Source of the DNA: a virus
Virus record (IMG/VR): IMGVR_UViG_3300035698_003801
Coordinates: 1 to 20,016 of that record
Length of the DNA: 20,016 bases
Strand: one strand, 5' to 3'
The position numbers and the translations under genes are program-made. A model generated the notes under the pieces. The model made no database searches and had not been told where the DNA came from. It saw only the letters and a list, made by a program, of their open reading frames with translations. Shown here in pieces: positions 4,502 to 19,846 of this stretch; position 1 is the stretch's first letter, and each line of letters begins with the position of its first letter.

Positions 4502-6151
4502 ATGGATGAATTAAAAGAGCAAGCATTACTTGAGAAGGAGGCATTCGAGGAGAAGATGTCTGATGAGGCTTTGCTTACTCAAATAGAGTCGTGGGTCAGA
4601 GAATCAGAAACCTTTTATAGCAAGTTAAGACCAATCTGGGAACAGAACCTAGAATACTATGGCGGAATCCAGACAGGAGTAGAGTCTCTTAGAGGCAAGA
4701 CTTCACGAGCTGTGGAAAACCGTATCTTTATGGCAGTGGAAACAATGATACCTATTGCTAGTTCTCGACTTCCAGACATAGAAGTCAGAGCAGGAAGTGA
4801 AGACGAACAATCTCAGATGAACTCCAATGAGTTACAAGATATATTGGGTTATCATATGGAGAGAGTAAATATCCAAGGTAAGGCAGAACAGTTCCTAAGA
4901 GATATGATTACCAAGAGATATGGAGTCTTCAAGATTAACTGGGATAAAAATGATGTAGATTTAATAGTTAGAGACCCTCGGAAGATAAGAATACCTAAGT
5001 TCGGGAGACTAACCCAAGACCTAGCTTTCATTATAGAGGATTTAGAAATGAGTTATAACCAGCTAGTTGAAAAGTTTGGGAATAAGAAAGCTGAGGAAGT
5101 TAGAAAAGAAGCTCCAAAAGTAGGGATAACTGATAACGGAGAAGAAGACCAAGTTAGAAAAGCAACCTTTACTATCTTAGAAGTTTGGACTAACGAAATG
5201 GTAGCCTGGAAAGCAGGAAGCATTATCCTTGACAAGAAAGAGAATCCATACTTTAATTTTAATAATAAGGAAAAGAATTGGTTTACCTTCCCAAGCAAAC
5301 CATATGTAATAAAATCTTTGTTTGAGACAGACGAATCAATGATTGGAGATACTGATTATATTCAACAAATGATTTCAATCCAGGACAATATAAATAGTAG
5401 AAAGCGTCAAATAGAGAATGTCGTTGCTAAGGTAGCTAACCCTCCTCTCTTAATAGATAGCGATACGATGTCAGAAGAACAGGCAGCCAATATCACCAAC
5501 GAGGAAGGATTGATAATCTATGGCAAGGACGCAGCTGACGGAACTAAGATAAGATTTGAACAACCAGGACAATTACCGAATGATGTCTTCTTGGACCTAG
5601 AAGGAAGTAGAAGTGCCTTTGATAACATCTGGGGGATACACTCCACTACTAGGGGGGAAAGACAAGGAAAGGAAACGCTGGGAGGAAGGCAGTTATTAAA
5701 AGCAGCTGACCTAGGACGGATTGACCTAGTAGCCAGACAATTAGAGAGAGCCCTAGATGAAGTAGCTGGCTGGTGGACACAACTGATTAAGTTGTTTTAT
5801 ACAGAGAACAAGAGTTTCTCTATTGCTGGAGAGGACGGAACAATATTCATTAACAATTTCACAGGAGACAAGGTAGCTAAGAATACTAAGTTGAGAGTAA
5901 TGGCTGGGTCAACCCTACCTAAAGATGAGATAACCCAGAGGCAAGAGGCAATAGAGCTATGGCAATTAAAGGCCATAGGAGTAAAGACTCTTTATAAGAG
6001 ATTGAAGATGTCGAATGTTCAGGCTGCCGTAGCAGACTTTGTAGAAACCCAGTCTGGAGCAATAATGCAACCCCAAGGAGGTCAGGGTGGACAGCCTGCC
6101 CTAGGACAAGGAACACCAAGTGCACCGCCACCTGTCCAACCACAAGTATAG
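4502..6151 (+). CDS. Portal protein
   Basis: The 549-aa protein has the length, position (just after the terminase) and features of tailed-phage portals. There is an N-terminal helical region (SWVRESETFYSKLRPIWEQN), a clip/stem region with phrases such as NRIFMAVETMIPIASSRLPD, and a conserved middle where a long helix region (YIQQMISIQDNINSRKRQIE) precedes a glycine/asparagine-rich segment. A segment WGIHSTTRGERQGKETLGGR, common near the C-terminal third of portals, is also present. The protein forms the dodecameric DNA gate at one capsid vertex. The last 30 residues are Q, G and P rich (QPQGGQGGQPALGQGTPSAP), probably disordered. It is followed by tandem hairpins rather than directly by the scaffold. 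Confidence 0.85.
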   Translation: MDELKEQALLEKEAFEEKMSDEALLTQIESWVRESETFYSKLRPIWEQNLEYYGGIQTGVESLRGKTSRAVENRIFMAVETMIPIASSRLPDIEVRAGSEDEQSQMNSNELQDILGYHMERVNIQGKAEQFLRDMITKRYGVFKINWDKNDVDLIVRDPRKIRIPKFGRLTQDLAFIIEDLEMSYNQLVEKFGNKKAEEVRKEAPKVGITDNGEEDQVRKATFTILEVWTNEMVAWKAGSIILDKKENPYFNFNNKEKNWFTFPSKPYVIKSLFETDESMIGDTDYIQQMISIQDNINSRKRQIENVVAKVANPPLLIDSDTMSEEQAANITNEEGLIIYGKDAADGTKIRFEQPGQLPNDVFLDLEGSRSAFDNIWGIHSTTRGERQGKETLGGRQLLKAADLGRIDLVARQLERALDEVAGWWTQLIKLFYTENKSFSIAGEDGTIFINNFTGDKVAKNTKLRVMAGSTLPKDEITQRQEAIELWQLKAIGVKTLYKRLKMSNVQAAVADFVETQSGAIMQPQGGQGGQPALGQGTPSAPPPVQPQV

Positions 6152-6240: not shown

Positions 6241-6848
6241 ATGCCAACAGGTGAAGCACCAAGCATAGATGAAGGCGTGGAGGAACCCGTAGAGGAGACT
6301 CCAGGAGAACCATCAACTCCAGAGCAAACTGTTCCAATCGGTCGTTTTAATGAAGTTTATAAGAAAACGAAAGAATTGGAAGAGAAAATCGGCACACTCA
6401 AAAGCTCAGACGGTGAGCAATTAACTCTGAACAGCAAAAGGAGCGTCAAGCTGAGGAATATCTTTCTAAACTCTATGACAAAGTCATCGATAAGAGAGAA
6501 ACCGCAGCCAAAGCTACTAAAGCTAAAGAACAGGAGGAGTTTGAAACAGAGATTGATGACGTATTGGCTATCCACACCGATGTCAATAAGGACGAGTTTC
6601 TCAAGTTCGTAAAGACCAAGAGCGACGAATACGGGGTTAAATCCGTAAAAGGAGCTATGAAGCTTTATAAGGACCTGGGTAAACTAAAGTCCGAGACAGA
6701 GGATGAGGTAAAGGATAATTTTTCCAAGAAGCCAAACCTTCCTAAGTCGGAAGGAACATCAGTTTCTAAAACTCCACCAGATGATTCTGACAAGAGTTAC
6801 GAGCAAATCCAAAGAGAGATTGAGGCAGAGGCCGAAAAGGTCAAATAA
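6241..6848 (+). CDS. Probable scaffolding protein, interrupted by a -1 frameshift
   Basis: The frame starting at 6241 begins with an acidic, P/E-rich segment (EEPVEETPGEPSTPEQTVP) and a coiled-coil stretch (YKKTKELEEKIGTLKSSDGE). After about position 6425 it turns into basic nonsense and stops at 6612. The -1 frame, open from 6417 to 6848, continues with typical scaffold sequence: NSEQQKERQAEEYLSKLYDK, EEFETEIDDVLAIHTD and a C-terminal KSYEQIQREIEAEAEKVK. Joined, the product has about 202 aa, helical and highly charged, directly before the capsid gene, as expected for a capsid scaffold. One missing A in TTAAC (near 6421-6424) would restore a smooth reading ...GEQLNSEQQKE. Either the assembly has an indel or the phage uses a -1 frameshift; no classical slippery heptamer is seen. 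Confidence 0.65.
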
Positions 6849-6873: not shown

Positions 6874-7875
6874 ATGCCCGCAGTAAGTAAATTCGTAACA
6901 ACAACGACTCAGACTCGTTTACTTCCTAAGGTTGTAGACCAGATTCTTGACGGAAACGTTCTAATGATGAGGTTGTTAAAGAATGCCAGTACCTGGAGAG
7001 GGGGAACTAAAATTGACATTGCTGTAAATCTATCTGATATTACAGCCGTTGGTTCCTACTTCGGATTTGACACTCTAGCAACAGCTCAAGAGAATATCCG
7101 TGAAAGAGCTAGTTTCAACCCAAGTCAATACTACGTAGCAGTACCACTTTCTGGAATTCAAAAAGCTATAAACCAAGGTGAAGCAGCAGTTATTAACATG
7201 GTTGCTGAAGAACTAAAGTTTAGAACAGCTAGGTTGAAAGACGAAATGGGAACTGACTTATATCTTGACGGAACAGGAAACAGCTCAAAGGCATTCACAG
7301 GGATAGATGCAGTTGCAGATGACTCTACAAGTGTTACCACTTATGGTAATATTTCAAGAAGTTCATTTGCTAACTGGAAAGCTACCCGAACAGCACAGTC
7401 AGGTTCATTAAGTTTAGCTGATTTAGCTACTGATTTTGATGCAGCTCAAAGAGGTGATAAAGTTCCTACAATAATGGTAACTACCCCAGCGGTATTCACC
7501 ATTTATGAAGCACTTTTAACACCGACTGTATCTCATCAGTTCTCAATGAATGACTTTAGAATGACTGGAACTGGAATGGCTAGAGTTGGAGGAACATTGG
7601 CGGCTAATCAAGGCTTTAGGGCTTTGACTTTCCGTGGTATTCCTATCGTAGCAGACGAGAAATGTACATCTGGTTATTTATATACATTGAACGAAGAACA
7701 TTTGAAGTTCTATGTTATACCTCAACCAGGAAGAGAGATTAAGAACGGTTTCGCTTGGACAGGTTGGAAAGAACCAGTCAACCAAGACGCTACCGTTGGT
7801 CATATGCTTTGGTACGGTCAGTTAACTTCTGATTCACCAAGGACAATGGCTAAGAGAACAGGAGTCACATCCTAA
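6874..7875 (+). CDS. Major capsid protein
   Basis: The 333-aa protein sits where the major capsid protein is expected, right after the scaffold. It has the feel of an HK97-fold shell protein: an N-terminal arm (SKFVTTTTQTRLLPKVVDQI), a long helix (GEAAVINMVAEELKFRTARL, then KDEMGTDLYLDGTGN) like the spine helix and P-domain turn, and a C-terminal beta/A-domain region (GFRALTFRGIPIVADEKCTS, EEHLKFYVIPQPGREIK). No prohead protease gene lies nearby and the protein begins close to its mature arm, so a cleaved delta domain is unlikely. A separate scaffold is present instead. The start context is AAATATTATG with no Shine-Dalgarno. The stop overlaps a TAAAGGTCG motif shared with two other structural genes. 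Confidence 0.88.
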   Translation: MPAVSKFVTTTTQTRLLPKVVDQILDGNVLMMRLLKNASTWRGGTKIDIAVNLSDITAVGSYFGFDTLATAQENIRERASFNPSQYYVAVPLSGIQKAINQGEAAVINMVAEELKFRTARLKDEMGTDLYLDGTGNSSKAFTGIDAVADDSTSVTTYGNISRSSFANWKATRTAQSGSLSLADLATDFDAAQRGDKVPTIMVTTPAVFTIYEALLTPTVSHQFSMNDFRMTGTGMARVGGTLAANQGFRALTFRGIPIVADEKCTSGYLYTLNEEHLKFYVIPQPGREIKNGFAWTGWKEPVNQDATVGHMLWYGQLTSDSPRTMAKRTGVTS

Positions 7876-7907: not shown

Positions 7908-8327
7908 ATGTCTTTCAAAAACCCCGCAAATTCTAACCCTAAAGCTCGTGTTCAGAGTTTTACGGTGCCACATACATTGCCCTATACAGACGCAGCATCT
8001 GCAAATTATTACGCAGAGGTATTCTGGATTGCTCCAGATAAGTGTGTCGTAGATTCAGTGGAAGCAAGGTGGGAAACCGCTTCATCTTCAGGAACAGTAA
8101 CAGTTCATAAAGTTCCTTCAGGCACCGCAGTATATTCTGGTACAGCTTTATTGTCAGCTACCATTAGTACAGCAGGAACTGCTGATACTAAAACAGCAGG
8201 GACATTAAGCACTACCAAAGCTACTTTAGAGTTAGCCGCAGGTGATGGACTTCAGCTAGTTGATAGCGGAAGCCTCACAAGCCTTGTAGGTCTAAACGTT
8301 ACAGTTGGCCTACATTGGATAGTTTAA
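7908..8327 (+). CDS. Small beta-rich structural protein, likely capsid decoration or head fibre
   Basis: The 139-aa protein has no cysteine pairs, is rich in A, S, T, V and G, and alternates short strands and turns (VQSFTVPHTLPYTDAASANY, YAEVFWIAPDKCVVDSVEAR, then GTVTVHKVPSG, and LNVTVGLHWIV at the end). It looks like a beta-sandwich. It directly follows the major capsid protein with a 32-nt spacer, the usual place for decoration, stabilisation or head-fibre proteins. I do not recognise a named family. The start is well supported by the AAAATTATG context used by its neighbours. Confidence 0.6.
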   Translation: MSFKNPANSNPKARVQSFTVPHTLPYTDAASANYYAEVFWIAPDKCVVDSVEARWETASSSGTVTVHKVPSGTAVYSGTALLSATISTAGTADTKTAGTLSTTKATLELAAGDGLQLVDSGSLTSLVGLNVTVGLHWIV

Positions 8328-8344
8328 AGGTCGTAAAACAATAC

Positions 8345-8410
8345 TTGAGAATCTATGGGTTAGTTTTGTGCAGTAATGTATGAAACGATTATTCCCTTAA
8401 AGGTTCTCGA
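8345..8410 (+). repeat. Stem-loop in the spacer before the first paralogue
   Basis: TTGAGAA (8345-8351) can pair with TTCTCGA (8404-8410), with one G-T wobble. Inside, GGG (8358-8360 region) faces CCC (8395 region) and GTTT faces AAAC. The 92-nt spacer 8328-8419 is otherwise without a gene. Confidence 0.35.
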
Positions 8411-8419
8411 ACTAGAATT

Positions 8420-9145
8420 ATGTCTATGACAGGTGCACCCGTTATATACGGGATAATCCCTCACACGGATAGTACAGAACAAAAACATCCATTAGGAACA
8501 ACAGGCGTTACCAATGACGGTAGAACGTATCGCTACGGTCAAGCCGCTAGTACTAAATTAGTACTAGGTAAAATGTGTATCGCTCCAGATATTACAACTC
8601 ATCACGAAGATATAGCTGTTAATACCTTTGCAATCGGTGATAAATCTATCACTGCTACCTTAGGTGCTACTGCTATAACTGGTAATGAATATCAGGAAGG
8701 TTTGGTAAATGTTACTGATGGTACAGGTCAAGGTATAATGTACAAGATTAAGAGTTGTCCAGCTACAGCCTTGAGTTCAGATGTGATTATCACATTAGAA
8801 GAACCTATAATTGTAGCCGCTGAAGCAGCAACTACGGTTACTCTTTATCGAAACAAATACCGAGACATTATTGTATCAGACGGTACTCAAGCTGATTTAC
8901 CAGTTGGAGTTCCTAATATTGATATTGCCGCAGATTCATACGGATGGTTCCAAGTTGGAGGTCCTTGTTCTGTCTTAGTTGACGCAAACGACACTACAGT
9001 TGGTACTCCAATCACAATCGGTGATGGAACAGCTGGCGGAGTCGAAACTCACAATGCAGCTACTGAAGTTCTTGTTGGTATTCAACCAGCAGGTGCAGGT
9101 GCAGATGTAGGCGAATACGGTGTATTCGAATTAACACTTAACTAA
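8420..9145 (+). CDS. Beta-rich structural protein, paralogue 1 (likely capsid decoration)
   Basis: The 241-aa protein is built from strands and glycine turns: PVIYGIIPHTDSTEQKHPLG, GVTNDGRTYRYGQA, APDITTHHEDIAVNTFAIGD, VTLYRNKYRDIIVSDGT, and YGWFQVGGPCSVL. The phrase NDGR-[TA]-YRY, the central acidic loop and the GGPC turn are shared with the next gene along the whole length, so the two arose by duplication. The content and location between the capsid protein and smaller head accessory genes indicate a virion surface or decoration protein, in my judgement. No catalytic motif is visible. The start context is GAATTATG. Confidence 0.6.
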   Translation: MSMTGAPVIYGIIPHTDSTEQKHPLGTTGVTNDGRTYRYGQAASTKLVLGKMCIAPDITTHHEDIAVNTFAIGDKSITATLGATAITGNEYQEGLVNVTDGTGQGIMYKIKSCPATALSSDVIITLEEPIIVAAEAATTVTLYRNKYRDIIVSDGTQADLPVGVPNIDIAADSYGWFQVGGPCSVLVDANDTTVGTPITIGDGTAGGVETHNAATEVLVGIQPAGAGADVGEYGVFELTLN

Positions 9146-9147
9146 TC

Positions 9148-9193
9148 ATTGGTTTTCTATGAGGGTGTCAGACCCCTCTTAAAGTTCTCCAAT
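9148..9193 (+). repeat. Stem-loop between the two paralogues
   Basis: ATTGG (9148-9152) pairs with CCAAT (9189-9193) and GAGGG (9161-9165) with CCCTC (9174-9178) around an 8-nt loop. It fills almost the entire 55-nt spacer. No T-run follows, so it is not a classical terminator. Confidence 0.4.
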
Positions 9194-9200
9194 CAAATAT

Positions 9201-9929
9201 ATGTTTACAGGAATGCCCGTTATATACGGAATACGTCCACATAAAACAAGTACAGACCAAAAACATCCTATTGGTAGTTTAGGTCTTATGAATGACGGTA
9301 GAGCTTATCGTTATTGTCAGAACGCAGGAACTTCAGCTTTAAATCCAGGACAACTATGTATTGCTCCAGACATTACAACCAATCACGAAGATTTGGCGAC
9401 CAATACATTCACTATAGGTGATAGAAGTATTACAGTCACTGTTGGTGCCACTGCTATTACAGGCAATGAGTACGACGAGGGATTTGTAAATATTACTGAT
9501 GAAACTGGACAAGGAATAATGTATAAGATTAAGAAGATTCCTACTAGTTCAGGAAGTGAAGACATTACAGTTGACCTTGAAGAACCCATTAGGGTGAGTG
9601 CCGTAGCAGCAACTACAGTTACACTTTATAGGAACAAGTATCGTGATGTTGTTGTTTCTGACGGTACATTAACTGATGTTCCAGTAGGAGTTCCAAATGT
9701 AACTGTAGCCGCTAGCGAATACGGTTGGTTACAGATTGGAGGTCCTTGTTCTGTCTTAAATGACGAGACAACAACAATTGTTGCAGGAACTCCAGTTACA
9801 ATTGGACAAGTTACCGATGGTGCTGTTGAACCATTAGATGCTGCTACAGAACCATATGTTGGTAATGTTCCAGCAGGAGCAGTTGGTGACGCAGAAGAAT
9901 ATGTGGTAATCGAACTTACTTTAGACTAA
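9201..9929 (+). CDS. Beta-rich structural protein, paralogue 2 (likely capsid decoration)
   Basis: This 242-aa protein aligns end to end with the preceding gene (PVIYGIRPHKTSTDQKHPIG, GLMNDGRAYRYCQ, APDITTNHEDLATNTFTIGD, VTLYRNKYRDVVVSDGT, YGWLQIGGPCSVL). Many silent and conservative differences are spread over the whole length, so the duplication is not recent. Both copies keep intact frames and their own start context (AAATATATG here), suggesting that both are made. Two distinct decoration proteins on one capsid, or one head and one tail-side version, are both possible. Confidence 0.6.
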   Translation: MFTGMPVIYGIRPHKTSTDQKHPIGSLGLMNDGRAYRYCQNAGTSALNPGQLCIAPDITTNHEDLATNTFTIGDRSITVTVGATAITGNEYDEGFVNITDETGQGIMYKIKKIPTSSGSEDITVDLEEPIRVSAVAATTVTLYRNKYRDVVVSDGTLTDVPVGVPNVTVAASEYGWLQIGGPCSVLNDETTTIVAGTPVTIGQVTDGAVEPLDAATEPYVGNVPAGAVGDAEEYVVIELTLD

Positions 9930-9935
9930 CTAACC

Positions 9936-10006
9936 AGAAGCAGAGAGAGCGGTCTACTCTCGTTTACCCCGCAAGGGAGACATTAGTCTCGTAAACCTCT
10001 GCTTCT
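9936..10006 (+). ncRNA. Multi-branched structured element in an intergenic spacer
   Basis: A 10-bp perfect stem AGAAGCAGAG (9936-9945) / CTCTGCTTCT (9997-10006) encloses AGAG/CTCT (9946-9949 with 9957-9960) and a 6-bp stem GTTTAC (9962-9967) / GTAAAC (9991-9996). That second stem itself holds CCC-GCAA-GGG (9968-9977, GNRA loop) and GAGAC-ATTA-GTCTC (9977-9990). Almost every base is paired and helices stack without linkers. It is not a tRNA: there is no T-arm consensus. It ends 6 nt before the next ATG (10013). It could be a cis-acting translation control or an RNA processing or packaging signal. Confidence 0.55.
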
Positions 10007-10471: not shown

Positions 10472-10768
10472 ATGCCCAATCTACACGGTAATTTCTCTGC
10501 AAGGTCCGTAACAGAGACTGTGGTCAATGTCCCTAGTAATACGTGGACTCCTCTTCCAACAACCGCAAAGAGTGGTAGAGCACTCGTTGAGGTTACTAAT
10601 AAAGGAGAAGTCGCACTATATTTGTCTTACGACAATACTGCTGACATCCGACACAGAGCTGGTATCAAGACTGGAATGGTTAGAATACTTCCTATTCAGG
10701 ATAATCTAATCATATACGGTAGGTCAGTAAGTGGAAGCGTTAGGGTCGTAGTCACAGAGTACAAATGA
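10472..10768 (+). CDS. Small beta-sandwich-like structural protein, unknown
   Basis: The 98-aa protein is made of short strands (TETVVNVPSNTWTPLPTT, RALVEVTNKGEVALYLSYDN, LIIYGRSVSGSVRVVVTEYK). It has the composition and turn pattern of small virion proteins found after capsid genes, with no catalytic residues, membrane segment or signal peptide. The start is in the context GAATTTATG, 12 nt after the previous stop. It ends 1 nt before the ATG of the Ser/Thr-rich protein, so the two are probably translated together. Head completion or a surface adaptor are possible roles but not shown. Confidence 0.55.
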   Translation: MPNLHGNFSARSVTETVVNVPSNTWTPLPTTAKSGRALVEVTNKGEVALYLSYDNTADIRHRAGIKTGMVRILPIQDNLIIYGRSVSGSVRVVVTEYK

Positions 10769-10769
10769 T

Positions 10770-11003
10770 ATGAGTGAATTTTTATTTGGCAATACGTTGA
10801 TAAGTTGGACATCTACATCTAGTAGTACTTCAACTAGTACCACCGTTACAACGACATCATCTACTACGACTACTGTTACGAGTACTTCTAGCACTTCGTC
10901 TACCTCTACTACTGTTACGACTACTAGTAGCACTACCTCCACCTCCACGTCTACATCAACCAGCACGAGCACATCTACTTCAACCAGTACAACAGTAACC
11001 TAA
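10770..11003 (+). CDS. Mucin-like Ser/Thr-rich protein
   Basis: After an 11-residue head (MSEFLFGNTLI) and SW, the remaining 64 of 77 residues are Ser or Thr with only a few Val (patterns such as STSTSTTVTTTSS). All four Thr codons and all six Ser codons are used, with no nucleotide periodicity, so the protein sequence rather than DNA slippage maintains the tract. No membrane segment or domain is seen. It lies at the right end of the head accessory genes and directly before the sugar cassette (stop at 11001-11003, next ATG 11010). I infer a virion or secreted protein carrying dense O-linked glycans. A disordered spacer is the alternative. It resembles the tail of the LamG protein at 18776. 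Confidence 0.6.
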   Translation: MSEFLFGNTLISWTSTSSSTSTSTTVTTTSSTTTTVTSTSSTSSTSTTVTTTSSTTSTSTSTSTSTSTSTSTSTTVT

Positions 11004-11009
11004 AGAATT

Positions 11010-11825
11010 ATGAAAATATGCGTAGTTGGAATCGGGATGGTAGGAAGTCAAGTCAAAGCGTGGTTTCGAGAAGCTCTGACTTATGACACCAAAAAGCAGT
11101 CCAATAACTGGGACGAGTGTTCTAGTGCGGACTGTTTTTTTGTTTGCGTACCAACCCCATATAAAGAGAACGAAGAATACGACTTATCTTATTTAGAGGA
11201 AGCCATAGCTAAAATCCCAGATGGGAAGATAGTTGTGATTAAATCAACTGTAACTCCAGGGACAACTGATTACTTTCAACAGAAGTATCCTAATAAGAAG
11301 TTTATGTTTAACCCAGAATTTCTAACTGAGTTATCAGCCAAGGAAGACTTCTTCCACCCAGATATGCAGATACTCGGAGTTGGGAAAGAAAGTTATAAGT
11401 TGGCTTCAGAGATAATGTTAATGTTGCCATCAGCACCAGTTATGAGAATTGTTTCTCTTATAGACGCTGAGTGGATTAAGAAGATAAGAAATGCTTATTA
11501 TTCTACTAAGGTTATCTTCTTTAATCAAATATACGATATTGTTAATAAGACCCAAGGGGATTACGAAACAATTAGAAGTATAATCGTAGAAGACCCAAGA
11601 ATTGGAAACTCTCATTCTTTTGTATTTCATAAGAATTACAGAGGATTTGGGGGAGCCTGTTTACCAAAGGATACTTATTCCTTAATAGATTTCGCCAAGA
11701 AAGTCGAAGCACCATCTTGTTTATTACAAACAGTTAAAGACCTAAACAAACAATATGAGAATAGCCCTAACGGGGTCTCTCGGATTCATCGGGAGACACT
11801 TATTCAGAGAGTTAGTAAAAAGTAA
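11010..11825 (+). CDS. ugd: Nucleotide-sugar 6-dehydrogenase lacking the C-terminal domain (Ugd-like)
   Basis: This 271-aa protein oxidises C6 of a nucleotide-activated hexose to the uronic acid with two NAD+. Visible motifs are the Rossmann loop GIGMVG (7-12), CVPTP (46-50), KSTVTPGTT (78-86), NPEFLTE (101-107), an AEWIKKIRNAYYS helix with K157/K158 and N161, and the active-site loop GFGGACLPKD (212-221; catalytic C217). Family members are usually 390-450 aa with a C-terminal UDP-binding domain. Here the protein ends soon after the catalytic loop, and its last 24 residues are read from the next gene's Rossmann region (71-nt overlap). It may be a minimal catalytic form or a deleted remnant. 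The exact substrate (UDP-Glc, UDP-GlcNAc, GDP-Man) cannot be told. Confidence 0.8.
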   Translation: MKICVVGIGMVGSQVKAWFREALTYDTKKQSNNWDECSSADCFFVCVPTPYKENEEYDLSYLEEAIAKIPDGKIVVIKSTVTPGTTDYFQQKYPNKKFMFNPEFLTELSAKEDFFHPDMQILGVGKESYKLASEIMLMLPSAPVMRIVSLIDAEWIKKIRNAYYSTKVIFFNQIYDIVNKTQGDYETIRSIIVEDPRIGNSHSFVFHKNYRGFGGACLPKDTYSLIDFAKKVEAPSCLLQTVKDLNKQYENSPNGVSRIHRETLIQRVSKK

Positions 11826-12612
11826 GTATACCTATGTCATTGGAATAGACCTGAAAGACGGAAATGATATTAGGAAATTAGAACCAAGGAATTTTAAAGG
11901 AATTGATTATGTCTTTCATATGGCAGCCCAAGCCAAGGTTCAGCAATCAATAGACAAACCAGTATTTACTAATTCACATAATATAGAGGGAACTCTTAAT
12001 GTATTAGATTGTGCCAGAAAGGCAGGGGTTAAAAGAGTAATCTATTCAGCCTCATCTTCTGCCTATGGAGAACAAGATAGTTTACCATTAAGAGAAGATA
12101 TGATACCTAACCCAATGTCTCCCTACGCTATACAGAAACTAGTGGGAGAGATGTACTGTAAACAGTTCTATGAACTCTATGGATTAGAAACAGTGTCGCT
12201 ACGATACTTTAATGTCTATGGTCCAGAGATGCCAGTAGATAGTGCTTACTCCGCTTGTATCGCAAGATTCCTAGACTTTTATAAGAATGATAAACATCTT
12301 CCAGTTTATGGAGGAAAGCAGACTAGAGACTTCACCTATGTAGGAGATGTCGTCCAAGCTAATTTGAAAGCAATGATTTCAGATAATGTTGGAAAGGGGG
12401 AGGTTATAAATATTGGTTCTGGGGAAAACTATTCTATTGATGCTATAGCTAAAGCTGTATCTAATGATATTAAACATCTGCCTCAAATGAAGGGTGAACC
12501 GATGAATACTAAAGCCGATAATAAAAAAGCTAAAGAGTTGTTGGATTGGGAACCAACAATGAATGTAATAAAATGGCTAACACAATTCAAGAAAGGCTCG
12601 AAGGAGTCTTAA
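11755..12612 (+). CDS. NAD-dependent nucleotide-sugar epimerase (extended SDR)
   Basis: The 285-aa protein is a full-length extended short-chain dehydrogenase/reductase. It shows the NAD-binding loop GSLGFIG (7-13), a Ser-rich active-site strand SASSSAYG (98-105), the catalytic Y124 and K128 (YAIQK), and the substrate-loop motif RYFNVYGP (150-157). These are typical of UDP-glucose/GlcNAc 4-epimerases of the GalE/WbpP type, which use a 4-keto intermediate. Genes of this kind often sit next to a 6-dehydrogenase in LPS and capsule clusters to make galacto-configured uronic acids. The start lies within the end of the preceding gene, ATG at 11755, with no Shine-Dalgarno. It overlaps the following amidotransferase-like gene by 40 nt. 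Confidence 0.8.
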   Translation: MRIALTGSLGFIGRHLFRELVKSKYTYVIGIDLKDGNDIRKLEPRNFKGIDYVFHMAAQAKVQQSIDKPVFTNSHNIEGTLNVLDCARKAGVKRVIYSASSSAYGEQDSLPLREDMIPNPMSPYAIQKLVGEMYCKQFYELYGLETVSLRYFNVYGPEMPVDSAYSACIARFLDFYKNDKHLPVYGGKQTRDFTYVGDVVQANLKAMISDNVGKGEVINIGSGENYSIDAIAKAVSNDIKHLPQMKGEPMNTKADNKKAKELLDWEPTMNVIKWLTQFKKGSKES

Positions 12613-13490
12613 AAGAATCAGTTGAAAAGAGTATAGAAAAGTTGGATAGACCATATGCAGTATTTTTATCTGGTGGGTTAGATAGTAGTTTACTTGCTGC
12701 ACTAACAAAGCCAGATGTTCTTATCACCTGTAAGTTCCCCTATGGTAAGAAGTATGATGAGTTTCATTATGCTAGAAGGGTAGCCACCTATTTAGGCATA
12801 AGGCACGAGGTGATAACTTTTACAGAGAAAGATTTTAAAAAGAATTTAGAATATGCTGTTAATGCTCATAAACCGACTTCTCATTTTAGTCTAGTTCCTC
12901 TCTGGATGTTATTTAAGAAAGCAAGTGAGTTAAAGATAAAGACAGTTCTCTCTGCTCAAGGTCCCGATGAATATTTAGGAGGTTATTCTTCTTATACGTT
13001 TATTAATCACGAACAGGAATTATATTCCAAAGAAGAACTAAAGAATTATCACCCAGCCCTTAATAAGTATTTAGGAACTCCAATGGAAAGGTTTGCTAAA
13101 ATATTAGGCAAAGAACCAAAAGAGTTAAAAAGATACTGGGGAAGGTATGGAAATCTGTTGAGCAAAATGGGTTATACTGATTTACATTTAAGAGGAATAG
13201 AAGATATGGAACAAGACTTAGCCGAGCACTGGAACATAAACCTAGTTTACCCTTATATGTCTAAAGGATTAGAAAGATTCTGTTTTGAGTGTGTCCCAGA
13301 CAAACTAAAGATTAACGGTTTTATCACTAAGTTTATATTAAGACTGATAGCTGATAAGTATCTTCCAGATGATGTAGTCTGGCGTAGAAGTAAGATGGGT
13401 GGACCAGTAGCACCAGTAGGTAAATGGTTGGGTGAGAAAGATGAATTCTGTAAAGATAAATATTTAAAACTACAAAATGGATATAAATAA
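12573..13490 (+). CDS. Asparagine-synthase-like amidotransferase without glutaminase domain
   Basis: The 305-aa protein is the ATP-dependent synthetase half of the asparagine synthase family. It has the PP-loop LSGGLDSS (32-39), which binds ATP pyrophosphate, and the second conserved loop GPDEYLGGY (130-138). A C-terminal basic segment (KFILRLIADKYLPDDVVWRR) is also present. The N-terminal Ntn glutaminase (about 200 aa, starting with Cys2) of AsnB and of the LPS amidotransferases is missing, so ammonia must come from the medium or another protein. Beside a nucleotide-sugar 6-dehydrogenase it would plausibly amidate the uronic acid carboxylate, as known for WbpS/WbmI-type enzymes. I chose the ATG at 12573 rather than a TTG 27 nt upstream. 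It overlaps the next gene by 14 nt. Confidence 0.8.
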   Translation: MANTIQERLEGVLKESVEKSIEKLDRPYAVFLSGGLDSSLLAALTKPDVLITCKFPYGKKYDEFHYARRVATYLGIRHEVITFTEKDFKKNLEYAVNAHKPTSHFSLVPLWMLFKKASELKIKTVLSAQGPDEYLGGYSSYTFINHEQELYSKEELKNYHPALNKYLGTPMERFAKILGKEPKELKRYWGRYGNLLSKMGYTDLHLRGIEDMEQDLAEHWNINLVYPYMSKGLERFCFECVPDKLKINGFITKFILRLIADKYLPDDVVWRRSKMGGPVAPVGKWLGEKDEFCKDKYLKLQNGYK

Positions 13491-14304
13491 ATTATCATCA
13501 TACCAAAATCCAGAAGGGAAACTAAAAGATAGACTTGTTCCAAGGGTTGAGTCTCGTTTGGGTAAAATAGATTGGAACATATTTAAGGGAAGAACAGTTC
13601 TTGACATTGGCTGTAATAATGGTTTGTTTGTTAGAGAGGCAATAAAGCACGGTGCCACAAGAGCAGTAGGGGTTGATATAAGTGATTGTATCCAAGGGGC
13701 TAAAGAACTTGGTGATGGAGAGTTCTGGCAGATGAATGTTAATAGCAAGGAGTTCAGAAAGTTCTGTCCTAGGTTTGACATAGTCGTATTGTTTTCTGTT
13801 CTTACTCATATAGGTAGAAATGGTGATATTGATGAGTTCCTTGACTGGCTAGATGATAGAGTTAAATATGTTCTTTTCTTTGAGAGTAACCACGGAGAGA
13901 GATATAAAAAACATATTGACCTAGTTAGGAAGCATATATATTTTGAGAAATGTGTTTATTTAGGACCAAGCGATATTCCAGAAAAGCCACACTATATGTG
14001 GGTTTGTAAGAAAGCAGACCACGAGATGAAATATCCACAAATAACTAGTGCTCCAGTCACCTTTCTCCCAATAAATGATATTGTTGGTGTGGATGAGAAA
14101 ACTATATTAAGTCAGAAAATTACCTATCCAGTAACTAGTGATAAGTTTAAAGATTTAGTGTCAGACATTAAGGATAGGGGGATAAGAGAACCAATAGTTG
14201 TTAGGGCAAGAAAAGATGGAAAGTTTAATATGTTTCAAGGGGGTCATAGATATTTAGCAGCTAAACAACTTGGATACAAGTATGTACCCTGTAAGGTAAT
14301 ATGA
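13477..14304 (+). CDS. Fusion of SAM methyltransferase and ParB/Srx-like domain
   Basis: Residues about 20-180 form a class I methyltransferase with a clear motif I (VLDIGCNNG, 41-49) and GVDIS at the end of strand 2 (65-69). The usual FDIVVLFSVLTHIG segment lies at 100-113. Residues about 195-275 form a ParB/sulfiredoxin-type domain: DIKDRGIREPIVVRARKDGK, then the signature FQGGHRYLAAKQLGY, with GGHRYLAA (255-262) matching the G-x-x-R-x-x-A of ParB, which binds or hydrolyses CTP. The fusion is unusual. Its place in a sugar operon suggests that it acts on a nucleotide-sugar or glycan, not DNA partitioning. The ParB domain could bind a nucleotide such as CTP or a CDP-sugar. Both domains look complete. 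Confidence 0.75.
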   Translation: MDINKLSSYQNPEGKLKDRLVPRVESRLGKIDWNIFKGRTVLDIGCNNGLFVREAIKHGATRAVGVDISDCIQGAKELGDGEFWQMNVNSKEFRKFCPRFDIVVLFSVLTHIGRNGDIDEFLDWLDDRVKYVLFFESNHGERYKKHIDLVRKHIYFEKCVYLGPSDIPEKPHYMWVCKKADHEMKYPQITSAPVTFLPINDIVGVDEKTILSQKITYPVTSDKFKDLVSDIKDRGIREPIVVRARKDGKFNMFQGGHRYLAAKQLGYKYVPCKVI

Positions 14305-15023
14305 GATTATCAACTATAATCCCAAGTTATAACAGATTCAATATAACCGTAGCCCACGTTAGGGAGGCAATGAATAATACTAGACCACCTGATGAGGTCA
14401 TAGTCGTCAATGACGGAGGAGACCCAAAGCTGAAGGAGATGCTTCAGAAGCTAGATATCAAAACCAAACTTATTTACGCTAGGATAAACGAGGATATTCA
14501 CTGGAACTATATGGGTGCTTGTAACCTCGGATTCTGGTTATCAACAGGAGATTTAATATCTGTTGAAGATAACGATAATATACCAACTAGTACTATCTAT
14601 GAAGAGCAGATTAAGTTCTTAGAAGCTAATCCAAATGTTGGTAGATTGAATGGTGGAAAGAGGTGGGATATATCAGAAACTCAATTAACGAAACCGTCAA
14701 GTGAGTGGGTAATGGAAAGCAAGAGAGGACCTAATATGGGAACCTGTATGATGAGAAGGGAACTCTATTATAAAATGAAAGGTTATGATGAAAGGTTCTC
14801 TGGAAACTATGGTTGGATGTATTATGACATAAGGGTTAAGGTTCTTAGGTTGTGTGATTTTGGAAGATGTGGAAATTATTGGTATATTAAAGATGGACAG
14901 GACAACATAGACCACAAGGTAAGCTCTAAGAACTACAGTGTGTTTAGAAAAAACAGAAAACTTGGTTTAAAGCAATCAGAAGAAGGATTATTAAACTTTA
15001 GCTATGAGGTTGAAACACTATGA
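14301..15023 (+). CDS. Glycosyltransferase, GT-A fold (family 2-like)
   Basis: The 240-aa protein begins with the GT-A opening strand STIIPSYNR (4-12), followed by VVNDGGD (35-41) for the nucleotide sugar. An acidic ED-N-D cluster (SVEDND, 87-92) serves as the DXD-like metal site. Downstream come MMRRELYYKMKGYDERFSGN and a Tyr-Tyr-Asp where GT2 enzymes usually have the catalytic ED pair. It should transfer a sugar from a nucleotide donor to an acceptor, probably the glycan or the Ser/Thr-rich proteins at the cassette's ends. No membrane segment is present, so it works in the host cytoplasm. It overlaps both neighbours by 4 nt (ATGA type), implying translational coupling. Confidence 0.8.
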   Translation: MRLSTIIPSYNRFNITVAHVREAMNNTRPPDEVIVVNDGGDPKLKEMLQKLDIKTKLIYARINEDIHWNYMGACNLGFWLSTGDLISVEDNDNIPTSTIYEEQIKFLEANPNVGRLNGGKRWDISETQLTKPSSEWVMESKRGPNMGTCMMRRELYYKMKGYDERFSGNYGWMYYDIRVKVLRLCDFGRCGNYWYIKDGQDNIDHKVSSKNYSVFRKNRKLGLKQSEEGLLNFSYEVETL

Positions 15024-15784
15024 AGAAAGCAAAACCTAGAATGAAATACGCTTCAATTATATTAGTTCATTATTCATTGGTAGATGACTATGGTGAAAAG
15101 AAGGCTTTGAAAGACCAAGACTCTCGTTCTGTAATGTTGAAGAAGTCCATAACCTCTATACTAGAAAATACTAATTACCAAGCAGAGTTGATAGTAATGG
15201 ATAACGGGGGCAATCCAGACGATTCAGAGTATCTATTAGACCTTACAAGAAAGGGGCTAATAACTACTTACGTTAGATACGGAAACAATATGCAATATGC
15301 CTTTGCTAATAATCAGGGTGCAAAGTTAGCAACTGGAGATTATCTGGTTTTCACTTGCAATGATGTAACGGTTAAACCTGGGTGGCTATCAGAGTGTGTT
15401 AAATTAATAGAACATAATAACGATAGAAGACTAGTAGCCACTCCATTTATTGTTTCCCATATCCACCCAAAGTATAACAAAGAGAAGATTGGAGATGCTA
15501 GAATAAACCCATTCGCTGGGTCAAACTGTATGGTAATGGATAGAAGAACATTTAATGACTTGGGTGATTTTCACGTCTATGTTGATTTTGGTAATCAGTG
15601 GTATAGAGAAAAGGTCGCAAAGGGGTATAAGTCTATAGCACCACCAGAAGATATGGCAGTCCATCTAGCTAGTCACAGAGGGTTAAATTGGCACCAAAAG
15701 GTCAAGATAGTAAAAACATTATTAAATAAAAGAGAAATAAACTTTGATGAAAGTCTCAATAACCAAGAAGGCGTTAACGTTTAG
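15020..15784 (+). CDS. Glycosyltransferase, GT-A fold, second copy type
   Basis: The 254-aa protein has the GT-A start ASIILVHYS (11-19), a long insertion, ELIVMDNGGNPDDSE (56-70), NNQGAKLATGDYLVFTCNDV (97-116) where CND stands in for DXD, and KPGWL (119-123) as in GT2 enzymes such as rhamnosyl- and galactosyltransferases. A C-terminal acidic EDM near APPEDMAVHLASHRG may be the catalytic base region. It is not a close copy of the preceding GT, so the two probably add different sugars or make different linkages. There is no membrane segment. Its start overlaps the previous stop by 4 nt and its end overlaps the next gene by 38 nt. Confidence 0.8.
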   Translation: MKKAKPRMKYASIILVHYSLVDDYGEKKALKDQDSRSVMLKKSITSILENTNYQAELIVMDNGGNPDDSEYLLDLTRKGLITTYVRYGNNMQYAFANNQGAKLATGDYLVFTCNDVTVKPGWLSECVKLIEHNNDRRLVATPFIVSHIHPKYNKEKIGDARINPFAGSNCMVMDRRTFNDLGDFHVYVDFGNQWYREKVAKGYKSIAPPEDMAVHLASHRGLNWHQKVKIVKTLLNKREINFDESLNNQEGVNV

Positions 15785-16601
15785 GTTTTTCGATTATAAG
15801 TGGAATAGACTTCCAAGTTATGCTAAAGACTCTAAGTCTATTTATAGAAAATGGTATTTGGAGAGATACGGATATACCAAGAAAACGTTTAAAGAGTTTC
15901 TTAATAACAAACATAGTATATTAGAAGCTGGTTGTGGAATGGGTAGAGATTCTATTTTCTTTGCTGAGTTGAATCCAAAGGCTAATATAGTTGCAGTTGA
16001 CCAAAGCCCTAGTGCAATTAAAGTTGCTAATAAGTATTTGCCAAAGAACTGTAGGGCAGTAAGAGATGATATTACCAAGATGAAGTTAAAAGAGAGGTTT
16101 GATTTTATCTCCTGCGACCAAGTTATTCACCATACCCCAAGTCCTAACAAGACACTTATTAATCTGATGAAGCACCTTAATAATGGAGGGGTGATTAACT
16201 TCTCAGTATGTAGGAAGAAGAACAAGTATCGTGATTTAGTAGATGATGTCTTAATGAACAATGGTCGCAAGATGACACAAAAACAACTCTGGGAATTTAG
16301 TGATGTGGTTACCAAGTTTGGGAAAGCTCTCTATGATTTAAAGATTAAGAATATAGAATTTGAGGGTAAGAAGTATCCAGATATACAGAGGTTCGTTCAC
16401 GATAATCTATTTAGATGTTGGTATAGTCCAAACGTAAGTTTTGAATCATCGTCTAGCTCAAACTATGATTGGTTCTCGGGTAACCCTCGGTTTAACGAGA
16501 AAGAGGTTAGAACACAAATACTTAAGTGTCTACCAAAATATAAATTATTAAGGTTGTTTAAAGATGACGCAACAATATCTGTGTCATTGAAAAAACTATG
16601 A
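15747..16601 (+). CDS. SAM-dependent methyltransferase (class I)
   Basis: This 284-aa protein has a class I methyltransferase core: motif I LEAGCGMGRDS (59-69), motif II VAVDQSPSAI (82-91), the DITKM region (108-112), and ISCDQVIHHTPSP (121-133) as motif IV. The pattern resembles Methyltransf_11/25 and cyclopropane-like small-molecule methyltransferases more than DNA or rRNA enzymes. In this operon an O- or N-methylation of a sugar is likely. I chose the ATG at 15747 (an upstream in-frame TTG at 15744 is not needed). It overlaps the end of the preceding GT by 38 nt and the next gene by 4 nt. Confidence 0.72.
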   Translation: MKVSITKKALTFRFFDYKWNRLPSYAKDSKSIYRKWYLERYGYTKKTFKEFLNNKHSILEAGCGMGRDSIFFAELNPKANIVAVDQSPSAIKVANKYLPKNCRAVRDDITKMKLKERFDFISCDQVIHHTPSPNKTLINLMKHLNNGGVINFSVCRKKNKYRDLVDDVLMNNGRKMTQKQLWEFSDVVTKFGKALYDLKIKNIEFEGKKYPDIQRFVHDNLFRCWYSPNVSFESSSSSNYDWFSGNPRFNEKEVRTQILKCLPKYKLLRLFKDDATISVSLKKL

Positions 16602-17464
16602 TGAAAGTAATGGTTACTGGTTCTAGTGGATTTCTGGCTCATCACATAATACCAGAATTACAAAGAAATGGTTATTATGTTGTTGGCGTAGATAAAAGAC
16701 CGATACCACCAGGTCACAATAAACCAGATTATTTTATTCAAACAAATGTTATGGATTTGGGGTTCAGGGATTTAATGGATATAGACTATGTCTTACATCT
16801 AGCCTTTATAACCAATATCCCAAACTCAGTTAGACACCCAAAGAACACTACTTTCCAGAACATAGATATGACTATTCATTTAATGGAGGTCTGTAAGGAA
16901 GCTAAGGTAAAGAAGTTTTTATTCCCATCTACAGCTTCACTCTATTCTACTAACCCAACTCCTTGGAAAGAGGATATGCCTCCTCTACCAATAGAACCGT
17001 ACAGTTGGCAGAAGTTATCCCTTGAGTATGCTTGTAGAATGTGGGACTTACCTTGTATCATCTTTAGGTTCTTCCAGATATTTGGGGAGCTCCAAAGAGA
17101 AGATACATCTTTATATGCTTTCTCCAAGTCAAAGGAGATAGGCAAACCTATTACTCTTACCGAGACAGTAGCTCAATCTTCATTCAAGTCAGGTCAAAGA
17201 GACTTCATTTATGCTGGAGATGTAGCTAAGGCAGTGGTAAAGGTATTAGAACACGGAGAGATAGGAGAGACATACAACGTAGCTTCTGGAGAAGTTCACA
17301 CTATGGAAGAAATAGCTAATGCTATGGGTTCTAAAGTAGAGTGGATACCTCGCAGAGAGTATGAAGTAGAGCGTCATCACGGAGATATTACTAAATTAAA
17401 GGAATTAGGTTGGCTACCAAAAGTCAATGTAATTGATTGGTTACATGAAAATAATAAAAAATAA
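16598..17464 (+). CDS. NAD-dependent epimerase/dehydratase (extended SDR), second type
   Basis: The 288-aa protein has the SDR glycine loop TGSSGFL (7-13), a dinucleotide-binding strand GVDKRP (30-35), the active-site strand FPSTASLYS (109-117), and catalytic Y135 and K139 (YSWQK). It differs clearly from the epimerase at 11755 (no RYFNVYGP; FRFFQIFGEL instead), so it serves another step: 4-keto reduction, 3,5-epimerisation or dehydration. Beside a sugar C-methyltransferase it could generate or reduce the 4-keto-deoxy sugar. Two starts are possible, ATG at 16598 and at 16601; the first gives the ATGA overlap. It overlaps the next gene by 20 nt. Confidence 0.72.
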   Translation: MMKVMVTGSSGFLAHHIIPELQRNGYYVVGVDKRPIPPGHNKPDYFIQTNVMDLGFRDLMDIDYVLHLAFITNIPNSVRHPKNTTFQNIDMTIHLMEVCKEAKVKKFLFPSTASLYSTNPTPWKEDMPPLPIEPYSWQKLSLEYACRMWDLPCIIFRFFQIFGELQREDTSLYAFSKSKEIGKPITLTETVAQSSFKSGQRDFIYAGDVAKAVVKVLEHGEIGETYNVASGEVHTMEEIANAMGSKVEWIPRREYEVERHHGDITKLKELGWLPKVNVIDWLHENNKK

Positions 17465-18665
17465 TAAATGTAGAATGTGCGATGGAACAGAGTTTAAGGA
17501 AGTTATAGACTTTGGAGACAACGCACTTGTTAATAGCTTATTAACAAAGGAAGAGTTTGGCACAGAAGAAGTTGCTTCTCTTGTAGTTGAACAATGCCAA
17601 AGTTGTTATCTAGTCCAGATAAGAAAAATAGTTGACTCTCACGAAATATATAAAGAGGTAGATTATCTTTATTTCTCATCTGATATGCCAACGCTAGATG
17701 ATTATTTCAAAGAGTTTGCCAAAGATGTAAAGGAAAGATTTTTAGAAGAAAATGATTTAGTTGTAGAAATAGGAAGCAATGACGGCATATTCATAAAGAA
17801 CTTTGACAATGCATTGGGAGTAGACCCAGCTTTGAATGTTGTCTTAAGAGCGTTGAAAAAGGGGATACCTACAATACCAGAGTTCTTCACAGACAAAGTA
17901 GCAAAGAAAATAATAGGAGAGTATGGACACGCTAAGTTAATCGCTGGTTCTAATTGCATAGCTCATTTGAATGACTTAAAAGATATGACAGAAGGCGTAA
18001 AGTCTCTGTTGACAAGTGATGGGGTATTCGTTGTAGAATGTAATTACTGGGGTGGTATGGTTAAGAACAAGAACTATGCGTTAATTTACCACGACCACTT
18101 CTCATATTTTACACTTAAAAACTGGTTGGATTACGCTAAAAAGAACGAATTAAGTGTATTTGATGCTATCGTTACGCCATCTCAAGGAGGTTCTTTAAGA
18201 GTGTTTATTGATAGGGGGGACAGAGAGATGACAGAAAGATGTTCAGATTTACTCCAAGAAGAATTAGACTCTAACCTTAATTCCTATGAAACAGCCAAGA
18301 GATACGAACGTGAGGTAAAAGAACAAGCTCAGAAACTAGGTGGTCTAGTAAGAAAGCTGAAGTCAGATGGTGCAGAGATAGCAGGATACGGAGCAGCAGC
18401 AAAAGGATTTTCTGTTCTCAAATTAGCTGAATTAGATGAAAGACATATAGACTACTTCATAGACGACAGCCCAGCTAAACAAGGAAAGTATACACCAATA
18501 TCACATATACCTATTTATAAGAGGACTAACCAAAAACCAGATTATTTCTTCATTACTGCTCCTAACTATAAAGACGTAATAATAAGTAAAGAGAAGGAGT
18601 ACTTAGAAAATGGAGGCAAATTCATTACAATTGAGGGAGATATTATCGACAAAGACAGCAAGTAA
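17445..18665 (+). CDS. Sugar C-methyltransferase (TylCIII/NovU type)
   Basis: The 406-aa protein has the three-part build of nucleotide-sugar C-methyltransferases. The N-terminal zinc-binding domain shows CRMC (9-12) and CQSC (51-54). A central SAM-binding domain has VVEIGSNDGIF (106-116), and the conserved YHDHFSYF (215-222) matches YHEHLSYF with the catalytic His region. The C-terminal domain carries AGYGAAAKG (about 316-324) and, further on, AKQGKYTPISHIPI. Known members add a methyl to C3 of dTDP-4-keto-6-deoxysugars, giving branched sugars. This strongly suggests a branched-chain deoxysugar is made. I chose ATG 17445 over a TTG 12 nt upstream. No 4,6-dehydratase (RmlB) is evident, so the precursor may come from the host. 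Confidence 0.85.
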   Translation: MKIIKNNKCRMCDGTEFKEVIDFGDNALVNSLLTKEEFGTEEVASLVVEQCQSCYLVQIRKIVDSHEIYKEVDYLYFSSDMPTLDDYFKEFAKDVKERFLEENDLVVEIGSNDGIFIKNFDNALGVDPALNVVLRALKKGIPTIPEFFTDKVAKKIIGEYGHAKLIAGSNCIAHLNDLKDMTEGVKSLLTSDGVFVVECNYWGGMVKNKNYALIYHDHFSYFTLKNWLDYAKKNELSVFDAIVTPSQGGSLRVFIDRGDREMTERCSDLLQEELDSNLNSYETAKRYEREVKEQAQKLGGLVRKLKSDGAEIAGYGAAAKGFSVLKLAELDERHIDYFIDDSPAKQGKYTPISHIPIYKRTNQKPDYFFITAPNYKDVIISKEKEYLENGGKFITIEGDIIDKDSK

Positions 18666-18750
18666 GTGTGTAGTTTCTGACAGAAAGATTGCCGAAAGGC
18701 ACGGAAGGGTACTAGAAGAAATACCAGCTCCTTTTATTCAACCCAAGTAA
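18610..18750 (+). CDS. 46-aa open frame overlapping the C-methyltransferase end
   Basis: This frame begins at an ATG 56 nt before the previous stop and ends at 18750, encoding 46 residues with a coding-like second half (CVVSDRKIAERHGRVLEEIP, then APFIQPK). Overlaps of 14-71 nt are usual in this cassette, which favours a real gene. No domain is recognised; it may be a remnant. A small hairpin TGCC-GAAA-GGCA (18690-18701) lies inside. Confidence 0.35.
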   Translation: MEANSLQLREILSTKTASKCVVSDRKIAERHGRVLEEIPAPFIQPK

Positions 18751-18775
18751 TGATATAGTAATTTATTCATAAAAT

Positions 18776-19846
18776 ATGGCTAACACTCATTCATTAGATT
18801 TAGAATCAAGTTCTTCCCAATATGCATATTGTGCTGACAATGCTGATGTTTCTGTTACTGGCGATATTACTATTGAAGCGTGGATTAAGTTAGAACAACT
18901 TCCCAGCACTGCCTCAAAACTGATGTATCTTGTTAGCAAATGGGGAAGTAGTGATGGAAATTATAGTTATGATTCCTCAATAGGAACTGACGACAAACTT
19001 AATTTCTATTTTTCAGATAATGGAGACTTTACCAACCATTATAGTTTAGTGCGAAGTAACTCAGCTTTCTTTGTTGCTGGAGACGTTGGGAACTGGGTTC
19101 ACGTTGCAATAACAATGGATGTATCTGTCCCATCTGGAAAACTATATAAGAACGGGACAGAAGTTGATTCAACTACGAGTCCTACCGATGCGACTTCAAT
19201 TTTTAATGGCACGCAGAACTTTACAATAGGACAAAATAATATAGGGCTAGATAGGTATCTTGATGGCAAAATAGACGAAGTAAGATTATGGAACGACGTA
19301 AGAACACAATCAGAAATAGATGATAATAAAAGTGTAGAATTAGCAGGGACAGAAACAAATTTAGTAGGTTATTGGAAATTAAATAACAATACTGATGATA
19401 GTGCTAAAAGTTCTGACTTAACTTTAAGTGGTAGTCCGTCTTATTCTAGCGATGTTCCTTTTGTGGGAGGTTCAACAACTACCACCTCCACTAGCACGTC
19501 TACCAGTTCATCTACCAGTACCTCCACTACGGTCACATCAACTTCCAGTACCACTACTACTGTAACTAGTACCTCTACAAGCACGAGTACCTCTACGAGC
19601 ACATCTACCACGGTAACTACATTAACCAGCACCAGTTCAACCACGACCACCTCAACGACGAGTAGTACTTCAACTACTCTTACCAGCACTTCATCAACTA
19701 CCAGCTCTACAAGCACGACATCTACTTCTACTAGCACGACAAGCAGTACCAGCTCTACCACTAGCAGTACAACGTCAGCACCACCATACATAATCCCAAT
19801 ATTAGAAATGAATATGTACAGTCCAATATTAGAAATGGTAAGATAA
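18776..19846 (+). CDS. LamG-like lectin domain protein with mucin-like Ser/Thr tail
   Basis: The 356-aa protein starts with a laminin-G/concanavalin-type jelly roll (residues about 4-225). LESSSSQYAYCADNADVSV and ITIEAWIKLEQLPSTA form the first strands. WVHVAITMD, KLYKNGTEVDSTTSPTDAT, FTIGQNN and GKIDEVRLWNDVRTQSEIDD are hallmarks of phage tail-tip and surface LamG modules that bind glycans. Residues about 232-336 are nearly all Ser and Thr, with mixed codon use. The C-terminal 20 residues (PPYIIPILEMNMYSPILEMV) contain the repeat PILEM twice. It lies at the right end of the sugar cassette, so a virion surface protein decorated by the cassette's product is plausible. There is no signal peptide. 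The start context is AAAATATG. Confidence 0.78.
   Translation: MANTHSLDLESSSSQYAYCADNADVSVTGDITIEAWIKLEQLPSTASKLMYLVSKWGSSDGNYSYDSSIGTDDKLNFYFSDNGDFTNHYSLVRSNSAFFVAGDVGNWVHVAITMDVSVPSGKLYKNGTEVDSTTSPTDATSIFNGTQNFTIGQNNIGLDRYLDGKIDEVRLWNDVRTQSEIDDNKSVELAGTETNLVGYWKLNNNTDDSAKSSDLTLSGSPSYSSDVPFVGGSTTTTSTSTSTSSSTSTSTTVTSTSSTTTTVTSTSTSTSTSTSTSTTVTTLTSTSSTTTTSTTSSTSTTLTSTSSTTSSTSTTSTSTSTTSSTSSTTSSTTSAPPYIIPILEMNMYSPILEMVR
19796..19837 (+). repeat. 15-bp direct repeat near the end of the LamG gene
   Basis: CCAATATTAGAAATG occurs at 19796-19810 and 19823-19837, in frame (27 bp apart), encoding PILEM twice. It is a short tandem duplication or a conserved C-terminal tag module. Confidence 0.5.

Follow-up and report, generated by a model that had tools for sequence, protein, structure and literature searches.

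A candidate protein O-glycosylation module with Ser/Thr-tract acceptors in uncultured phages

Results

The stretch of viral DNA analysed here (the window, 20,016 nucleotides; IMG/VR record IMGVR_UViG_3300035698_003801, which is 20,016 bp as a whole and holds no further sequence beyond the window) carries a cassette of nine sugar genes, each overlapping the next (11010-18665), between two proteins with nearly pure serine/threonine (Ser/Thr, S/T) tracts, and we propose that this locus is a phage-borne module for protein O-glycosylation. The small tract protein (77 amino acids (aa), 10770-11003, + strand) consists of a 13-residue start with the N-terminal motif MSEFLFGNTLISW, followed by a tract of 64 residues, 60 of which are S/T. 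The other proteins of the window have an average S/T content of 11%, and against this background the log10 P of the tract is about -52 per site. This 77-aa protein is a predicted O-glycan acceptor. On the other side of the cassette lies a LamG-domain protein (18776-19846, + strand; PF13385 4e-26) with a tract of 103 residues, including 97 S/T, and a conserved C-terminal tail, PYIIPILEMNMYSPILEMVR, the protein terminating in APPYIIPILEMNMYSPILEMVR. The original prediction for this DNA had described a block of nine overlapping sugar genes with a Ser/Thr protein of 77 residues to the left and a LamG protein to the right, and both the coordinates and the Pfam identifications agree with this arrangement. 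Its count of about 100 Ser/Thr in the LamG protein is borne out as well, with the conserved tail as an addition, and its description of the 77 residues as almost all Ser/Thr holds for the tract and not for the conserved start, so that the protein is better described as motif plus tract.

Pfam identifications were obtained for all nine cassette genes, which are all on the + strand. A short UDP-glucose/GDP-mannose 6-dehydrogenase family protein of 271 aa (11010-11825; PF03721 8e-22, PF00984 5e-18, TIGR03026 2e-44), in which the C-terminal domain was not matched and which belongs to a cluster conserved in relatives (c9), is followed by a short-chain dehydrogenase/reductase (SDR) of the nucleotide-sugar epimerase/dehydratase type (11755-12612; PF01370 1e-50; cluster c4), with TviC and GalE as nearest curated models, and by an Asn-synthase-like ATP-dependent amidotransferase domain without the glutaminase domain (12546-13490; PF00733 3e-42; cluster c17). 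The fourth gene codes for a methyltransferase fused to a ParB N-terminal-type domain (13477-14304; Pfam); it is missing in L009, the closest relative of the window (95% identical), and is therefore not core. A stand-alone ParB-like open reading frame (ORF) of ~90 aa, similar to that of the fusion, follows the portal gene in two relatives, L026 (8841-9137) and L031 (8260-8529). Next come two GT-A glycosyltransferases (GTs), GT1 of family 2 (14301-15023; PF00535 5.5e-13), which passes the curated cut-off of Glycos_transf_2 (PF00535, 49.6 bits versus 23.3), and GT2 (15020-15784; PF00535 2.7e-15; cluster c3); an AlphaFold2 model of GT1 was too poor (mean predicted local distance difference test score, pLDDT, of 55) and was not used. 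The cassette ends with an S-adenosylmethionine-dependent methyltransferase (15744-16601; PF13847 5e-20) with a putative role in sugar O-methylation, a second SDR nucleotide-sugar enzyme (16598-17464; PF01370 2.5e-39) and a protein of the sugar C-methyltransferase type, with a Methyltransf_13 zinc domain and Methyltransf_14 (17433-18665; PF08484 9.5e-39, PF08421 1e-13). That these genes form a complete sugar pathway, as had been claimed, is not supported. No clear membrane-spanning protein, be it a flippase, a polymerase, a gtrA-like or another one, was found in the cassettes of the window and of the pieces of seven relatives, and the hallmark of lysogenic-conversion or O-antigen-modification clusters, a membrane flippase or polytopic GT, was not encountered among the cassette proteins.

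Relatives of the window were gathered by capsid and portal profile scans, with capsid identities down to ~20-25%. In the tract-bearing relatives (22 further phages), small tract proteins of 51-192 aa occupy a fixed slot after g98, a conserved small virion-module protein that lies directly upstream of the tract protein in the window (10472-10768, + strand). They are built of an N-terminal motif of 14-18 residues plus tract, and throughout the lineage the small proteins (23/23) have [FLI][TS][WF][TS] ahead of the tract, the one of L003 (L041 5549-5722) being detected with an ORF cut-off of 40 aa. Wherever the contig of an annotated relative extends that far, a sugar or GT gene comes after the small tract protein. 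The cassette content varies from phage to phage and includes GTs, SDRs, 6-dehydrogenase, methyltransferases, amidotransferase and polysaccharide-deacetylase-like genes. Downstream of the cassette lie longer proteins, which differ in their N-terminal domains and have a tract and, at the C-terminus, a tail such as APPFIIPILDIKPVKPILDIKR, and after them come virion structural genes; the LamG protein is a member of this long class and has its tail in common with the tract proteins of relatives. The original prediction had suggested a search of other phages for the pairing of a Ser/Thr protein with a GT cassette: the pairing is conserved and recurs outside the group of the window, and the opposite pattern, in which tracts would always lack a GT cassette linked to them, did not occur. 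We infer two classes of candidate acceptors, one anchored by its N-terminal motif and the other by its C-terminal tail.

Hydrophobic tails with repeated PILDI/PILEM units are common to tract proteins with unrelated N-terminal domains (window 19780-19846; L013, L044, L057, L091 and L396), and such a tail may be a virion docking tag. An HNH/NUMOD3 endonuclease ORF lies close to the tract gene in L003 (6181-6621) and in L009 a NUMOD3-like remnant (~8058-8378) separates the tract gene from the cassette; homing elements appear to visit the tract-gene slot.

Over the 23 homologous small proteins, S/T codons account for 1821 of the 1844 tract codons (98.8%), with Ser and Thr contributing about half each. 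All ten S/T codons occur in these tracts and AGA/AGG never do, and merely 43% of the single-base changes from these S/T codons would remain S/T. The residues G, P, A, N and Q are almost absent, unlike in ordinary linkers. Between the window and L009, the tract length changes in frame and many substitutions are synonymous or exchange S and T. Since ten synonymous codons are mixed while S/T is kept, selection bears on the protein, and the tracts are neither chance runs nor a DNA repeat.

Two glycosyltransferases were found to track the tracts. Tract proteins adjoin close relatives of GT1 (at least 42% identity) in 8/8 loci, compared to 0/8 for distant family-2 GTs, and two of these eight loci (L394, L395) are without this capsid or portal, that is, outside the phage group of the window. 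The second, c6, a ~420-aa protein modelled as a GT-B/GT4 fold, was present in 9/10 tract-bearing and in 0/18 tract-lacking capsid-family records of at least 20 kb (p=1.4e-6); the sole near-complete tract-bearing relative from the capsid scans without c6 is a 26.6-kb fragment. In the clade of the window (G003, G005, G001), c6 and two partner genes are located elsewhere on the minus strand, so that a 20-kb fragment such as the window would miss all three. A scan of IMG/VR with c6 gave 66 loci outside the lineage, with an S/T-tract ORF within 10 kb in 43 of them, compared to 0/80 for sugar-epimerase control loci (p=1.8e-20); when only loci of at least 15 kb were considered, a tract was present in 31/41 c6 loci and in 0/40 controls. 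The median gap between c6 and tract in the outside loci is 1.4 kb, and small paired tract proteins with quite different N-termini often lie directly upstream. Ten c6-negative capsid relatives from metagenomes with c6 loci exhibited no tract in the DNA fetched, 2-3 of them having little downstream sequence. The genomic link between the tracts and these two GTs is strong.

The best fold matches of c6 are BshA, MshA and WaaG, at 11-16% identity, from a structure model of moderate confidence (mean pLDDT 65), which also matches the chlorovirus NY2A GT structure 3oy2. The assignment is a fold match only, c6 scoring below the curated cut-off of Glycos_transf_1 (PF00534, 22.4 bits versus 26.4). BshA, MshA and WaaG act on malate, inositol phosphate and lipopolysaccharide (LPS) core, respectively. 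The c6 profile matched no PDB sequence at E<=1, GtfA included, and c6 gave no NCBIfam family match and no tblastn match in 50,697 GenBank phage records. Among 84,980 cellular genomes it was matched just once, by a 4.5-kb contig of a metagenome-assembled genome, a contig that is probably itself viral. In L116, L127, L157, L164, L166 and others, Ser/Thr tracts (often Thr-only) lie inside larger proteins, with no c6 in the DNA fetched; such tracts may use other GTs or none.

The window opens with a packaging and head block of the standard tailed-phage type, with terminase (2733-4163), portal (4502-6151) and major capsid protein (6874-7875, + strand; phrog_9953 1e-49), and small virion-module genes run from after the capsid gene up to g98. 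With the capsid gene as comparison anchor, the cassette is placed within the virion-gene module. The capsid protein of the window has no S/T tract (the use of glycan sites is not readable from sequence). A scaffold-like gene is split over two frames in the window (6241-6612 and 6564-6848) and is a single ORF of ~200 aa in relatives such as L009; the split could stem from an error in sequencing, from a genuine frameshift mutation or from programmed frameshifting. Downstream of the capsid gene, a virion-module protein of ~241 aa is tandemly duplicated (8420-9145 and 9201-9929), with two copies also in L019 and one in L009. The capsid gene of the window is uninterrupted; that of L009 (4469-5778) contains a group I intron (4912-5194; Rfam Intron_gpI, 65.6 bits), and the major capsid gene of the divergent relative L010 likewise has an HNH-type ORF, along with a weak match to an intron (~9109-9965). 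The portal profile had no match in the 84,980 cellular genomes, and a peptidoglycan-peptidase-like gene (phrog_2307) in one relative suggests a bacterial host.

Discussion

We estimate at roughly three in four the probability that this locus works as a phage-borne module for protein O-glycosylation. The 77-aa protein (10770-11003) and the LamG protein (18776-19846) would serve as acceptors, their short anchors (N-terminal motif or C-terminal PILDIK-type tail) holding stalks of Ser and Thr alone. The soluble cassette enzymes would produce one or more modified nucleotide sugars, to be transferred onto the tract hydroxyls in the host cytosol ahead of assembly. The first sugar on Ser/Thr would come from c6, the conserved GT-B, and/or from GT1, the GT-A, and the glycan would be extended and decorated by the variable GTs, the methyltransferases and the amidotransferase. 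Built into the particle, the glycosylated stalks could form a dense, stiff, mucin-like bristle on head or tail, the changing sugars of which may aid in sticking to host or matrix glycans or in hiding from host surface defences; the coat may also act as a decoy. We infer the chemistry of the module, its first-acting GT, the identity of its sugar, its virion location and its benefit. The original prediction also held that the phage glycosylates its own proteins: the slot between head and later virion genes, the lack of membrane proteins and the lack of a base-modifying enzyme of the thymidylate-synthase type agree better with this idea than with the export of lipid-linked glycans or with DNA modification. 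The glycosylation of the tracts, their location in the virion and the suggested benefits (adhesion, shielding), judged from sequence, are unsupported.

The main remaining rival is that of an unmodified linker, in which the tracts are plain hydrophilic spacers of virion fibres, the cassette alters the host LPS or capsule, for example for superinfection exclusion, and their proximity is incidental. In many phages, sugar and GT genes serve functions at the host envelope, and some S/T tracts in other viral contigs are independent of c6. We consider this explanation unlikely, however, because GT1 and c6 follow the tracts inside and outside the capsid family, because the cassette is located within the virion-gene block, because the cassettes are devoid of flippases, polymerases, gtrA-like proteins and anything else that is clearly a membrane protein, and because the tracts are limited to S and T, with nearly no G/P/A/N/Q, unlike ordinary linkers. 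Phage GTs often glucosylate modified DNA bases (PMC12619734), and the sugars of the cassette could go onto the phage DNA, the tract proteins being unrelated; the way in which GT1 and c6 accompany the tracts makes this improbable, as does the absence of PF00303 (thymidylate-synthase/hydroxymethylase type) from the window and nine long relatives in a search whose controls worked. A Tet/JBP search was given no weight since its controls gave no signal. Hardly more credible is a role in which the tract hydroxyls bear phosphate, sulfate or acyl groups, or stay unmodified as an adhesive polymer, and the sugars go onto other proteins of the particle, for instance the capsid, where PMC12619734, citing Freeman 2023, places mycobacteriophage glycans, together with the tail-tube subunits: the cassette genes scanned gave Pfam hits to no kinase or sulfotransferase family, c6 co-varies with the tract proteins and not with the capsid, and capsid relatives without tracts lack c6. 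Finally, low-complexity DNA repeats grown by slippage and translated by accident, to which the differing tract lengths of close relatives (window versus L009) might point, can be dismissed, since ten codons are mixed at 98.8% S/T over 1844 codons, a codon usage that rules out a neutral repeat, since the length changes between window and L009 preserve the reading frame, and since both the start motif and the slot are retained.

Several points weigh against an O-glycosylation module. The module is a prediction from the genes, and the acceptors are assigned to the virion from gene position only. c6 is absent from the window sequence, and many S/T tracts of other viral contigs are without it, c6 being found in 2/80 loci in the DNA fetched (a half-specified S/T pattern scan gave a mixed sample, in which reading-frame false hits stood beside tracts of other kinds, and serves as background only). 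The within-family association may reflect one ancestral event. As for the 66 outside c6 loci, 23 are without a tract in the fetched DNA, several of them being short, some are near-duplicates (for example L249/L250, L282/L309, L310/L311, L275/L276/L278), and the epimerase controls were not habitat-matched.

On a broader level, we lean slightly towards an undescribed and widespread system of uncultured phages, in which virion 'mucins' would be O-glycosylated by the virus-specific c6 family and GT-A partners, and exchangeable sugar-modifying genes would vary the coat between phages, as a phage counterpart of serine-rich-repeat glycoproteins. Searches of the open-access literature turned up no account of virion proteins with Ser/Thr tracts and GTs linked to them. 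The original prediction regarded such a pairing as little described, which is right for the class of acceptor and for the family of enzymes, both new, but not for the principle, since virion glycosylation by mycobacteriophage GTs has already been reported; what is new here is the dedicated mucin-like acceptors together with virus-specific GT families. To our knowledge, bacterial adhesins and animal mucins follow the dedicated-acceptor strategy, and in phages only glycans on capsid or tail-tube ends are known. If the proposal is true, many environmental phages make their own glycoprotein coat using dedicated acceptor proteins, c6 and the motif-plus-tract proteins are two sequence markers by which such phages can be recognised, a new class of peptide O-glycosyltransferase acts on the simplest imaginable acceptor, and there is a direct route to testing what virion glycans do for phages.

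Three known systems can be compared with the locus. In chloroviruses (PBCV-type), virus-encoded cytosolic GTs modify a virion protein; these are, however, eukaryotic algal viruses, the acceptor is a folded capsid protein and not an S/T tract, and c6 shares the GT-B fold only. In the mycobacteriophages Che8 and Rita, as reported in PMC12619734 and PMC11256854 (Freeman et al. 2023), GTs encoded in the phage genome, as here, glycosylate virion structural proteins. The acceptors described there are the C-termini of capsid and tail-tube subunits, whereas dedicated Ser/Thr-only proteins with their own anchors are the candidates here, along with a sugar-modifying cassette that is larger and with c6, a GT family without a match in GenBank phages.

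The third system is that of the serine-rich-repeat protein (SRRP) adhesins such as Fap1, GspB and PsrP, in which, as here, the gene of a Ser/Thr-rich acceptor is clustered with glycosyltransferases: the cytosolic GtfA/GtfB prime GlcNAc on Ser/Thr, and a variable complement of 2-10 GTs is present per cluster (PMC6973325). These adhesins are Gram-positive cell-surface proteins with an LPXTG anchor, whereas the tract proteins here belong to a phage and carry new anchor motifs, the tail being of the PILDIK type, with no signal peptide seen. Neither an accessory Sec system (SecA2/SecY2/Asp) nor an LPXTG anchor was found among the window genes or the cassette genes scanned, a GtfA/GtfB-type priming enzyme with DUF1975 was not encountered, and c6 has no detectable sequence relation to any solved GT. 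Without accessory Sec, LPXTG or a detectable relation to GtfA, the locus does not belong to the SRRP systems. The binding domain, stalk and C-terminal anchor of an SRRP nevertheless resemble the LamG domain, tract and tail of the long protein described here, and by analogy the logic of the locus would match that of the serine-rich-repeat adhesins.

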